This document shows positions 30,318 through 60,055 of a stretch of 60,055 nucleotides of DNA, in pieces. The notes under the pieces were generated by a model. The model saw nothing but the letters and a program-made list of their open reading frames with translations, was not told where the DNA came from and did not search any database. How positions within the stretch are numbered: position 1 is the first letter of the stretch; each line of letters begins with the position of its first letter. Source of the DNA: Rickettsiales bacterium (GTDB taxonomy: Bacteria; Pseudomonadota; Alphaproteobacteria; Methylaequorales; Methylaequoraceae); assembly GCA_002691145.1 (NCBI GenBank), contig NZHE01000013.1, positions 31,106 to 91,160 on the forward strand, given 5' to 3'. Both the position numbers and the translations under genes were made by a program.

Positions 30318-31838
30318 AAAGTAAAACTATTAATAAAAAGGTAATCCTTTGTGTACTCGATGGTTGGGGAATAGCTCCTAAATCTAGGTCAAATGCTATT
30401 ACAAGTTCAAAGAAAAAAAATTATGACTATTTACTATCAAGATTTCCAAATACAATTTTAAACGCATCAGAAATTGATGTTGGTTTACCAAAGGGACAAT
30501 TTGGTAACTCTGAGGTTGGACATATGAATATTGGCTCTGGAAGAGCAATTAAACAGGACATTCTTAGAATATATGATGCTATTGATAATGGATATTTGAA
30601 AGACAATCAAGAGCTGAAAGATTTGAAGATAAAATCAAAAAGAATTCATGTTATTGGCCTTCTTTCGCCAGGTGGAGTTCATGGCCATGAAGATCATTTA
30701 TTTGCACTCATTGATTTATTAGCAAATACTTCAAAGGAAATCTTTATTCATTGTATTTTAGATGGTAGAGATTCGTCTCCTAAGAGTGGAATAAATTCCA
30801 TGAGGAAATTGAAAGAAAAAATTAACAACAAACCCAATGTAAAAATAGGTACAATTTCAGGAAGATATTATGCATTAGATCGAGATAATAGATGGGAAAG
30901 AATTGAATTAGCATATCGTGCTATTGTTGAGGGTAAATCTAAAAACTTTTTCTTAGATCCAATTGAAGCAATTGAAAAAAGTTATAATAATTCCTTGACT
31001 GACGAATTTTTTATCCCAGTCAAGATTGGAAATTATAATTATATTCAAGATGATGATGGTCTTCTGATTACAAATTTTAGGGCTGATAGAGTAAGAGAAA
31101 TACTAACTTCAATGTTTGATGAAAACTTCATGCATTTTAAAAGAAAAAAAATAAATTTCAGTAAATCATTAGGATTAATTGAATATTCAAGAAAAATTAA
31201 CAAATATATGGATTCATTATTCAAGCCTGTTCTGGTAAAAAATACTTTGGGAGAGGTCTTATCAGAAAAAAAAATTAAACAAATGAGAATGGCCGAAACT
31301 GAAAAATATGCTCATGTTACATATTTTTTTAATGGAGGAAATGAAAAACAATTTGAATATGAAGACAGAATTTTAATCGCATCTCCAAGGGTAAATACCT
31401 ACGATCAAAAACCTGAAATGTCAGCTTTTGAGCTTACAGAAAAAATTCAAGTGCAAATAAAAAAAAAATAAGTATGATTTTTTGTTAATAAATTATGCGA
31501 ACCCAGACATGGTTGGTCATACTGGAGTTTTGTCCGCGACTATTAGAGCTATTGAAACAGTTGATAACTGTCTTGGAAAATTGTACAAAGTTGCAAAGAA
31601 TAATGGATATATTTTAATTGTAACTTCCGATCACGGAAACGCAGATTGTATGATTGAAAACTCTGGAATGCCATGTACCACTCATACTACTAGTCCTGTT
31701 CCATTTATTATATGTACAAACGATAAAATTAAATTAAAAAAAGGTTGTCTTGCCGATATTGCTCCTAGTATTTTAGATATTATGAATATTGATAAACCTT
31801 ATGAAATGAAAGGTAAAACATTAATAGAAAAAAAATGA
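30314..31838 (+). CDS. gpmI: 2,3-bisphosphoglycerate-independent phosphoglycerate mutase, frameshifted
   Basis: GpmI interconverts 3- and 2-phosphoglycerate with a metal-bound serine. The first fragment has VLDGWGIAP, the active serine in GNSEVGHMNIG, and the HGHEDH and DGRDSSPKSG segments. It stops at 31471 right after a ten-A run at 31459-31468. The second fragment continues as KYDFLLINYANPDMVGHTG and carries the metal ligands in TSDHGNADCM and the HTTSPVPFI segment, ending at 31838. Nine A would make one protein of about 508 residues, as in the family. The gene is normally essential for central carbon flow when it is the only mutase, so real loss is unlikely. It overlaps rlmH and envC. Confidence 0.9.
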
Positions 31839-56669: not shown

Positions 56670-58064
56670 CTAAATATCCTCAACAAGACTGAATTTTCCT
56701 CTTATCGCTGATGCGGCTGCAATTGCTGGACTCACAAGATGGGTTCTTCCCTCTCTTCCTTGACGACCCTCAAAGTTTCTATTTGATGTTGATGCGCACC
56801 TCTCCTTAGGCATTAACTGGTCTGGGTTCATTGCTAAACACATTGAACAACCAGGTTCCCTCCATTCAAAGCCTGCATTAATTAATATTTTATCAAGACC
56901 TTCTTTTTCAGCCTGTTCTTTAACGAGTCCAGATCCTGGAACTATCATTGCATTTACTTTAACTTTTTTTCCTTTTACAATTTGAGCAACTTCTCTTAAA
57001 TCTTCAATTCTCCCATTAGTACATGAACCAATGAATACTTTGTCAATTTTTATTTCTCTAATCTTTTGATTAGGATATAAACCCATGTAGTCTAGAGACC
57101 TTAATACAGCCTTTCTTCGATTATCATCTTTAATTTTTTTTGGATCAGGAACATTCCCAAGAATTGGAGCAACATCTTGCGGACTTGTACCCCAGGTTAC
57201 TTGAGGTGAAATTTGTTTTGCATCTATAATAATTTCTTTATCGTAGCGAGCATTTTCATCCGACGGCAAAGTAGCCCAAAATTTTATTGCCTCTGTCCAA
57301 TTTTCTTTTTTTGGTGCATAAGGTCTATTTTTAATATATTCAAAAGTTTTATTATCAGGAGCTATTAGCCCTGCTCTGGCTCCAGCCTCAATGCTCATAT
57401 TACATATTGTCATTCTCCCCTCCATCGATAACTCTCGAATAACATTTCCTGCATATTCTATGACATACCCAGTTCCGCCAGCGGTTCCTATAAGCCCAAT
57501 AATGTGTAAGATTATATCTTTAGATGTAACTCCATGCTTGATTGTTCCATTCACAGTAATTCTCATATTTTTAGCAGGTTTTTGAATAAGAGTTTGTGTT
57601 GCTAATACGTGTTCAACCTCGCTAGTCCCAATTCCAAACGCAAGTGAACCAAATGCTCCATGTGTTGCTGTATGGCTATCGCCACAAACGATTGTCATGC
57701 CAGGTAAAGTTATACCTTGTTCTGGTCCAACAATATGAACTATACCTTGTCTTTTATCATGAAGAGGAAAGTAAGTTATATTGAACTCTTGACAATTTTG
57801 ACTCAAAGTCTCTACTTGAATTTTACTTTCTTCATTCTTAATACCCTGAGAACGATCTGAAGTTGGTACGTTATGGTCAGCAACTGCAAAAGTGCTTTGC
57901 GGGCAACGCACTTTTCTTCCAGTATTTCTTAAACCCTCAAAAGCTTGAGGACTAGTTACTTCATGAACTAGATGACGATCAATATAGATAAGACAAGTCC
58001 CATCTGATTGTTTGTCTACGATGTGATCATCCCAAATTTTATCAAAGAGAGTTTTAGGCCTCAT
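56670..58064 (-). CDS. leuC: 3-isopropylmalate dehydratase, large subunit
   Basis: This 464-residue aconitase-family protein has [20 protein letters not shown], the cluster cysteines in [12 protein letters not shown] and [13 protein letters not shown], and the C-terminal [13 protein letters not shown]. It is of standard length. It lies eight bases after rplS in the same direction, so leuCDB-asd-mch-sdhCDAB form a long co-directional run. Confidence 0.97.
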
Positions 58065-58072
58065 TTTTTAAA

Positions 58073-58549
58073 TTACTTAGGGGCTGCTTTTTCTAATTTT
58101 TTATTATCTTTAAATTCAGAACCTTTTAAATCCTTTTTTTCACTAATTTTATCTATCTTTTCAACTGGTGAAGATTGTTTAGCCTGATTGAACCTATTTT
58201 TTTCTGAAATTCTAGCTGATTTTCCGCTTCTATTTCTCAAATAATAAAGCTTTGACCTTCTAACGTCACCACTTTTAGAAACTTCAATTTTAGCTATTTG
58301 AGGTGAATAGAAAGGCAAAACCCTTTCAACACCTTCACCATATGAAATTTTTCTTACAGTGAAAGAAGAATTTATCCCTGAATTTTTTTTTGATATGCAT
58401 ATACCCTCAAAGACTTGAATTCTTTCTTTTTCACCCTCTTTAATTTTTAGATGAATTTTTATTGTATCACCAGGAAAAAATTTTGGATGGTCTTTATCTT
58501 TAATTAAATCATTAATTTGTCTTTTTTCAAATTTTTCTAAAGTATTCAT
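58073..58549 (-). CDS. rplS: 50S ribosomal protein L19, with extended charged tail
   Basis: This 158-residue L19 has [48 protein letters not shown] and [18 protein letters not shown]. The usual L19 ends about here (near residue 115). Some 40 more residues rich in Lys, Glu, Asp and Ser follow, ending EKAAPK. Tails of this kind occur in some alphaproteobacteria; the role is unknown. It follows trmD by two bases. Confidence 0.95.
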
Positions 58550-58551
58550 TT

Positions 58552-59256
58552 TTAAAATTCCTTTTTCTTCTTATACAACTTCCACAAATCAGGTCTAGCT
58601 TTTTTTGTAATTTCTTTTGCTTTTGCCTTTCTCCATTCCTCAATTTTATTATGATTTCCAGATAACAGAATTGATGGGACTTCTAATTTATTCCAATTTC
58701 TAGGTTTAGTATAATGAGGATATTCTAATAAATTAGAATGAAAACTCTCATTAAATAAGCTATCTTTATTACCCAAAACTTCAGGAATTAGTCTTACACA
58801 GGAATCAATTAAAATAAAAGCTGCTATATCGCCACACGATAGAACATAATCGCCAACCGAAACTTCTTCAATAATATTGAAATCAAGGAATCTTTGATCA
58901 ATTCCTTCATATCTGCCGCAAATTAATACAATTTCATCATATTCTAAAAATTTCTTTAATATGTTTTGGTCAAGTTTTTCACCCCTTGGAGAAAAGTTTA
59001 TAATTTTGCGTTTTTTATATTTACTATCGTTTAAAGAATAATCTAAGCATCTTTGCATAATATCTGATCTCAAAACCATACCTGCTCCTCCACCGAAAGG
59101 TTTTTCATCAACTCTTTTATTTTTTAAGGTTGAAAAATCTCTAATGTTGAAAGTTTCTAATGAAAATTTTTTTTCATTTAATGCCTTTCCAATTATTGAT
59201 TTTCCCAAAGGTCCAGGAAATATTTCTGGAAATAATGTTAATATTTTAAATTTCAT
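58552..59256 (-). CDS. trmD: tRNA (guanine37-N1)-methyltransferase
   Basis: This 234-residue SPOUT methyltransferase has [31 protein letters not shown], the knot region [12 protein letters not shown] and [12 protein letters not shown], and the C-terminal [13 protein letters not shown]. It makes m1G37 and prevents frameshifting at proline and leucine codons. This is worth noting in a genome whose genes appear frameshifted, although trmD itself is intact. It overlaps rimM by 11 bases. Confidence 0.97.
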
Positions 59257-59740
59257 TTTTGTAATAATCTGGATTTAAATGTATCTGCTTTTTTTCTTTA
59301 TCTATTTTTTTTACATGGACTCTATTTTCAGGGACCAAGATTATTTTTTTACTTTTTTTCAATTTTATCTCTAGATAATCTCCTGCTCCGTGATTGTTTA
59401 CAGAAATTACACTACCAAACATTATTCCATTAATAAATACTTTCAAGCCAATTAATTCAAAGAAATAATATTGATCATCATTGAGGGGTGGAAGTGATTT
59501 TTTTTCAATAAAAATATCTTTATTGGTAAGGATGTCGACTTCTTCTTTTGAATTGAAACCTTCTACCGAGCAAACATAAATCTCTTTACTTTTCGATATA
59601 AAATTTAATTCAATTTTTCTATTATTTTGAAGGAAAAATTTCTTAACAAATTTGATATCATTGGGATTTTCAAAAAAACTTTTTAATTTTATAAAACCTT
59701 TTACACCGTATGGTTTTAAAAATTTCCCAATAACTAACAT
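59246..59740 (-). CDS. rimM: ribosome maturation factor RimM
   Basis: This 164-residue protein has an N-terminal RimM domain (IGKFLKPYGVKGFIKL) and a C-terminal PRC-barrel (YYFFELIGLKVF, GAGDYLEIKLKKSKKIILVP). It binds S19 and assists 30S head assembly. It lies in the rpsP-rimM-trmD-rplS order. The first codon is ATG at 59740. Confidence 0.93.
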   Translation of the reverse strand: MLVIGKFLKPYGVKGFIKLKSFFENPNDIKFVKKFFLQNNRKIELNFISKSKEIYVCSVEGFNSKEEVDILTNKDIFIEKKSLPPLNDDQYYFFELIGLKVFINGIMFGSVISVNNHGAGDYLEIKLKKSKKIILVPENRVHVKKIDKEKKQIHLNPDYYKNEI

Positions 59741-59842
59741 CTTATGTTACGGATAAATTTTATGTTCATAATATTTAACTTAAAGTTTTTTGGTAATTAC
59801 TTTTTTAAACATTAGAAAGAGTAACTTTCACATTAATTATTG

Positions 59843-60055
59843 TTAAGTTTTAGAAAAATTTTCATCTTTTTCTTTAGCTACTGGTTCAGCTGTTTTTTCT
59901 TCAGTTACTTTTGATTCAGCTACCGGTTCAGCTGTTTTTTCTTCAGTTACTTTTGATTTAGCTACTGGCTCAGCTGTTTTTTCTTCAGTTACTTTTGATT
60001 CAGCAACGGGCTCAGCTGTTTTTTCTTCAGTTACTTTTGATTCAGCAACTGGCTC
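59843..60055 (-). CDS. rpsP: C-terminal repeat tail of a protein, probably 30S ribosomal protein S16 (partial)
   Basis: The frame runs from the window edge to a TAA at 59843-59845 and gives 70 residues. They consist of tandem 14-residue repeats, EPVAESKVTEEKTA (S-K variants E or K), ending with EPVAKEKDENFSKT. The conserved S16 core would lie outside the window. The call rests on position: the gene directly upstream of rimM in the rpsP-rimM-trmD-rplS order is S16, and alphaproteobacterial S16 often has a low-complexity C-terminal extension. L19 and L21 in this window also have extra charged tails. A different protein cannot be excluded without the N-terminal sequence. Confidence 0.62.
   Translation of the reverse strand, partial: EPVAESKVTEEKTAEPVAESKVTEEKTAEPVAKSKVTEEKTAEPVAESKVTEEKTAEPVAKEKDENFSKT
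59886..60055. repeat. 42-bp tandem repeat, four full units plus a fragment
   Basis: The unit that begins TCAGCTGTTTTTTCTTCAG starts at 59886, 59928, 59970 and 60012, with the next starting at 60054 at the edge, an exact 42-base period. Copies differ at only a few third positions and one E/K codon. The unit encodes 14 residues on the minus strand inside the putative rpsP, so it is a coding minisatellite. Copy number may be higher beyond the edge. Confidence 0.95.

Follow-up and report, generated by a model that had tools for sequence, protein, structure and literature searches.

Low-complexity regions are already known from bacterial ribosomal proteins, and S16 is one of the proteins in which they were described. 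In a survey of prokaryotes, S16 belongs to the bacterial ribosomal proteins for which over 100 orthologs bear such a region; 187 S16 regions were counted, of which 157 exceed 70% alanine plus glutamate, and most regions in ribosomal proteins are stated to be C-terminal and are expected on the surface of the ribosome (Ntountoumi et al. 2019, PMC6821194). Judging from the ribosomal section of that survey, a low-complexity S16 tail as such is known. S16 tails of an APAEEAPAEE type were also seen by us in Rhodobacteraceae, Sphingomonas, SAR116 and others. A second related system is formed by coding minisatellites, or intragenic VNTRs, which are best known from surface proteins. Here, a coding minisatellite in the S16 tail of an alphaproteobacterium is compared with both. 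The new part is a turnover of repeat units throughout a family under a steady net charge, together with a recurring break of the assemblies at this place.

The array and its gene at the contig end

The window, i.e. the whole stretch of 60,055 bases that was analysed, corresponds to positions 31106–91160 of contig C7 and ends on a tandem array. TRF describes 59876–60055 as a repeat with a period of 42 bp, 4.3 copies, 94% matches, no indels and a score of 311; in the 71 rows for the window, the best score outside this array is 70. The array is read in a minus-strand frame at 59843–60055 (the last 213 bases), which is open at the window edge, terminated by a stop codon and 70 residues long. Its translation consists of near-identical 14-residue units (EPVAESKVTEEKTA) and closes with the C-terminus EPVAKEKDENFSKT. 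Exact 42-bp repeats had been claimed in the original prediction. The tandem 42-bp units of 14 residues are indeed present, but they are near-exact rather than exact, as the four full units in the window differ from each other by 1–3 of 42 bases. When two units were used as a DNA query against the genome, nine matches were obtained, three of which belong to the window array and to the matching array that ends contig C18, while the remaining six cover 20–32 bases at E values of 0.5–1, the chance level. The window array is a coding minisatellite, with tandem units of tens of bases that stand in frame and far above chance. The features at this end of the window are:

59876–60055, minus strand: minisatellite, 42-bp unit in 4.3 copies, encoding EPVAESKVTEEKTA (TRF score 311)
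59843–60055, minus strand: 3' part of rpsP (bS16) with the repetitive tail and the stop codon; frame open at its 5' end, with the S16 core on contig C18 of the same genome (G000)
59246–59740, minus strand: rimM, ribosome maturation factor (TIGR02273, 122.5 bits, cut-off 66.2)
58552–59256, minus strand: trmD, tRNA (guanosine(37)-N1)-methyltransferase (NF000648, 289.9 bits; TIGR00088, 282.6 bits)
58073–58549, minus strand: rplS, ribosomal protein L19 (TIGR01024, 151.8 bits)

After rplS comes leuC, followed by an aconitase-C and an isopropylmalate-dehydrogenase family protein, which by place and family would be leuD and leuB, respectively. No tRNA or tmRNA genes are located within 1–60055 of the window.

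Contig C7 is 91,160 bases long, so the window edge is a true contig end, and the window stops inside rpsP because the contig ends there. The window itself holds only the tail. By profile search, the sole S16 match of the genome lies at C18:164817–165002 (PF00886, 101 bits against a cut-off of 27 bits, E 6.4e-29, profile positions 1–62 of 62), and the frame of this S16 leaves its contig at C18:165270 in the 14-residue units of the window, ...EAKVTEEKTAEPVAETKVTEEKTTEPVAESKVTEEK. On C18, ffh (SRP54 domains) is followed by rpsP, and on C7 the rpsP tail is followed by rimM, trmD and rplS. The usual gene order is ffh-rpsP-rimM-trmD-rplS, which fits the order across C18 and C7 if the two are joined. 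S16 and rimM each occur once in the genome, and the two contig ends share an exact suffix-prefix overlap of 37 bases. We infer that C18 and C7 adjoin within rpsP; if they meet at this overlap, the product would have about 217 residues, and units may be missing in the gap. That the N-terminal part is S16, as had been proposed, is thus supported as far as the assembly allows, by the PF00886 match on C18 and the tail units shared across the putative join. The window tail belongs to a real, otherwise ordinary bS16.

Both rpsP pieces end at contig ends, these ends have 37 exact bases in common, and the contamination of the bin is 3.57%, all of which would also fit an assembly or binning artefact, in which the two contigs do not adjoin or the assembler collapsed or multiplied the repeat. 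We consider such an artefact most improbable. Apart from chance-level matches, the window unit has no further occurrence in the genome, S16 and rimM are both single, and an equal split with a matching unit on both sides is present in three relatives (G003, G014 and G017). Moreover, the tail has been sequenced to its stop codon in 13 relatives, 12 of which have strong arrays (TRF score of at least 100).

Units, copy number and assembly breaks in the family

The family set contains 31 relatives, 22 with a detectable S16, and gives 23 S16 genes together with the genome of the window. In a tree of ffh and the S16 core with the tail excluded, which is a quick tree with four family rows under half filled, the family forms one clade (SH-aLRT 100). 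The S16 tail of G019 recurs in record L042 (AG-891-J16, 'uncultured Alphaproteobacteria'), and the two coincide in the tree, which makes the family alphaproteobacterial.

Strong arrays are present in the tails of 15 of the 23 family S16 genes. The eight others comprise seven genes truncated by a contig end and G024, whose intact tail has only weak repeats. The unit is 14 residues long in the genome of the window, 8 in G003 (lineage g4), 13 in g6, 19 in most of g7, 14–15 in g8, 32 in g9 and 22 in G017 of g10, and unit sequences are dissimilar between lineages. For example, G003 adjoins the genome of the window in the tree (support 92), and its unit is entirely different. Six g7 genomes with pairwise ffh identities of 92–96% share a 19-residue unit, which they carry in 2, 2, 3, 3, 3 and 5 copies; in a seventh g7 genome with this unit (G014), the array is broken at the contig end. 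The copy-number variation that had been suspected therefore exists between closely related species, each represented by one genome. Intact long tails with degenerate repeats are found in G021 (77% match) and G024 (best score 57), as would be expected after the decay of units.

The split of rpsP is common in the family. In 10 of the 23 genes (G000, G001, G003, G008, G009, G014, G017, G020, G025 and G026), the S16 frame leaves the contig in the tail, and in all ten cases a different contig carries rimM close to its end (in G020 only a partial rimM). The rimM-side piece repeats the S16-side unit in four of them (G000, G003, G014 and G017), and in the other six, the shortness or divergence of the pieces prevents a comparison of units. 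G015 has no S16 match, and its rimM contig terminates in an array of its own. On the ffh side of S16, all 23 genomes have 5 kb or more of unbroken contig, so that no break falls within this distance. The difference between ten breaks in the tail and none upstream has a Fisher p of 0.0006, which serves as a guide only since the genomes are related. Array length or copy-number differences within the sample may cause these breaks; the known units of the window differ enough from each other that unit number alone may not explain its own break. As a practical warning, draft genomes of this family often break in rpsP, leaving the gene truncated or its halves on separate contigs.

In a survey of the class, S16 was found in 230 of 241 genomes. 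Among the 150 matches listed, S16 lies less than 500 bases from the contig start with its tail outward in six (G014, G144, G151, G202, G226 and G252) and has its head side at the contig start in two (G188 and G269); six versus two among the matches listed leaves a class-wide excess of tail breaks unproven. In all five of the non-family cases (G144, G151, G202, G226 and G252), S16 ends in a strong array. Contigs also break after S16 in G048, where the S16 side shows a weak array with a score of 80 and rimM is preceded by PAEEAAAEEA units, and in G053, where S16 is cut at 97 residues and no array is visible.

Reading frame, composition and possible selection on the tail

To summarize arrays beyond the family, 149 S16 loci were given, of which 144 were read and three duplicates removed, leaving 141 genes. 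The period is divisible by three in all 34 arrays with a TRF score of at least 100, and in 33 of the 34 arrays with scores of 50–99. Strong arrays occur in 19 of the 118 non-family genes, compared with the 15 of 23 in the family; as 20 loci were chosen for long frames or contig ends, this share is not a class frequency.

This regularity bears on the idea that the array acts as RNA or DNA, e.g. by hairpins in the rpsP-rimM mRNA that set the downstream output. Compared with 200 dinucleotide shuffles, the window array has the more stable fold (z −4.3), and the centroid fold of the minus strand of 59843–60055 contains a hairpin in each full window unit. With a control that keeps the repetition, G019 and G021 also give low values, equalled by 1 and 2 of 100 shuffles, respectively. 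However, the same control gives a z of only −1.5 for the window unit, a value matched by 4 of 100 shuffles, the z values of 14 relatives and the C18 half, 15 rows in all, lie between −2.4 and +1.8 with no common structure, and an RNA element would not need strong periods that are all multiples of three. A role at the RNA or DNA level is accordingly quite improbable in our view. RNA structure as a function of the family was rejected, because hairpins and low z are not common to the family arrays. Promoter-like and terminator-like sites show no excess in 58000–60055 of the window (11 vs 9.4 expected and 1 vs 0.7 expected, respectively).

At the protein level, the core and the tail behave differently. 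The S16 core has 27 invariant columns among 20 aligned proteins, and no conserved motif was found in the tail past the helix in these same 20 proteins. That helix comes from an AlphaFold2 model of L042 (G019-type tail; alignment of 20 rows), in which the core reaches a pLDDT of 94–97 up to residue 80, a helix is predicted at 99–126, and residues 127–198 have a pLDDT of about 48–55 and no secondary structure. Low model confidence is only suggestive, and it suggests a disordered tail. From what has been published on ribosomal low-complexity regions generally, the tail would also be exposed on the 30S surface.

In the 13 intact tails of relatives, six of which come from one tight cluster, F, W, Y and C are absent from all 1354 residues, compared with 7.2% in the S16 core. 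Their net charge per residue is between −0.072 and −0.115. The 70-residue piece in the window has a charge of −0.10 and one F. All 13 intact tails extend 68–154 residues past the KAKEEK motif; with no intact family tail shorter than 68 residues, tail length may be under selection. Tail GC is higher than the core GC of the same gene in 19 of 21 family S16 genes with a measurable tail, and the genome of the window (C18 side) is one of the two exceptions.

As a control, we used the tails of L19, the operon partner of S16, in the same genomes (25 given, 24 read). L19 tails in the family are 27–78 residues long and low-complexity-looking, and only one of 24 holds an array with a TRF score of at least 100. 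Their A+P content is 5%, while it is 12–55% in intact S16 tails, and their net charge is negative in eight, zero in six and positive in ten (−0.11 to +0.12). The L19 of the window (L178) has a 43-residue tail without a tandem repeat according to TRF. Compared with L19, arrays and a steady negative charge are features of the S16 tail, and mutation bias alone fails to explain the S16 composition, since L19 differs in composition, charge and scarcity of arrays. The scarcity of aromatics was dropped as an S16-specific mark, because L19 tails have only 13 F, W, Y or C in 1319 residues and the window tail holds its one F. The sole strong L19 array belongs to rplS of G025 (L167), with a 30-bp unit in 4.5 copies and a score of 135.

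Substitutions between units were compared in 31 arrays. The pN/pS is below 1 in 21 and above 1 in two; six arrays have amino-acid changes only, and in two the units are identical. For the 29 informative arrays, 21 versus 8 corresponds to p = 0.024, with pairs within arrays not independent of each other. The family alone gives nine below 1 against five (one above, four with amino-acid changes only), so that pN/pS counts for little in either direction. The pN/pS is 0.06 in G007 and 0.26 in G013; such low values in some arrays suggest that the unit sequence is possibly constrained, which would favour a specific function.

We regard a tolerated, composition-filtered and disordered bS16 tail, expanded by slippage, as the probable explanation, although with moderate confidence. 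The C-terminal tail of this bS16 is long and probably disordered and exposed, and short stretches of it would have been duplicated in tandem repeatedly, most simply by replication slippage or by unequal recombination between direct repeats. Selection would retain the duplications that are in frame and filter them by composition, with almost no aromatics and a mild net negative charge, and any unit meeting these bulk properties would be tolerated. Units would be amplified, decay by point mutation and get replaced, which would lead to lineage-specific units and to copy-number differences between close relatives. Slippage is what we infer from these patterns, as is a selection that would act on bulk properties and not through one specific partner.

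Several of the same observations would fit a tail that is selected for its length and charge, e.g. as a disordered arm on the 30S surface which recruits or repels the membrane, SRP, RNases or other ribosomes, and the repeats could then be a cheap way of keeping the tail long. In 13 of 13 intact family tails, 68–154 residues past KAKEEK are kept despite the replaced units, the net charge stays in a narrow range (−0.07 to −0.12), 21 of the 29 informative arrays have a pN/pS of less than 1, and L19 tails depart from this pattern with their 5% of A+P against 12–55%, a charge of either sign and one strong array in 24. We still think such a selected function rather unlikely, given that S16 goes down to about 110 residues across the class, that 19 further tails, picked because of a long frame or a contig end, have net charges between −0.34 and +0.10, that no tail motif past the helix is conserved among the 20 aligned S16 proteins, and that the pN/pS of the family alone is not clearly below 1 (9 vs 5).

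More doubtful is that the bS16 tail in this family would serve as a hypervariable arm of the ribosome, with length and charge selected, the sequence rebuilt by minisatellite turnover, and the tail length of the 30S varying between neighbouring cells or strains. If this were true, the arm would be a tunable feature of a core translation machine. To our knowledge, S16 is nearly universal in bacteria. A conserved S16 core, the replacement of tails from genus to genus and a narrow charge make up a natural series for the study of bulk-property selection on disordered tails. If tail length varies within populations, the ribosome heterogeneity of uncultured bacteria could be measured from long-read metagenomes.

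Comparison with other S16 tails and coding minisatellites

Strong in-frame S16 arrays also exist outside the family, such as those of G038 (102 bp in 4.6 copies; 311 residues), G088 (30 bp in 10 copies), G202 (30 bp in 8.4 copies, cut by the contig end) and the SAR116 records L061 and L063. The most instructive case is G226, a single contig of 1,199,990 bases, and both of its ends (L203 and L214) lie within the S16 array, with the same 10-residue unit and an exact overlap of 52 bases. Its rpsP is directly followed by trmD, and rimM gave no match. The chromosome of G226 appears to be assembled except at the S16 tail, although a circular contig opened at the repeat would give the same picture. 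The L19 tail of the same genome (L214), EAKKEEAPKTEMKKEAPKAESKTEKK, resembles the S16 unit EAPKAEAKKE, with 43 of 60 bases agreeing at the best of the 24 ungapped offsets; conversion between the tails or convergence is possible. In rpsP of G046 (L204 / L016), an acidic repeat half gives way to a half of KAPAKKAAAKKKSKA units that is strongly basic, and the overall net charge is positive.

Six very long S16 frames, i.e. those of G153 (623 residues), G113 (648), G219 (500), G073 (430), G110 (368) and G093 (347), are not giant tails. The real proteins have 116–215 residues, and the excess is stop-free sequence upstream of the start codon.

The tails described here, C-terminal by sequence, share the protein and the biased composition with the S16 regions of the prokaryote survey (PMC6821194). 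The window tail differs from them in two respects. Its A+D+E content is 40% (A 0.13, D+E 0.27), and thus it does not reach the more than 70% A+E of most of those regions; and it is built of near-identical 42-bp units, whereas the ribosomal section of the survey contains no minisatellite units, turnover or copy-number change. The original statement that few ribosomal proteins carry such repeats was therefore half right: S16 low-complexity regions occur in more than 100 orthologs, and near-identical units are not described in that section (PMC6821194). In the literature searched, which mostly excludes subscription papers, no published description of minisatellite turnover in S16 was found.

APAEEAPAEE-type tails, like those of the family, come after the same lysine-rich stretch, and are themselves rich in alanine and glutamate. 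A strong array is absent in most of those examined. The family tails differ from this type by their 68–154 residues in 13 of 13 intact cases, by units unlike APAEE and by a lower A+E content. On the DNA level, the S16 arrays are like coding minisatellites and intragenic VNTRs, with units of 24–135 bp that are in frame and copy numbers that vary between relatives. Unlike the best-known examples of that kind, they are carried by a core ribosomal protein.
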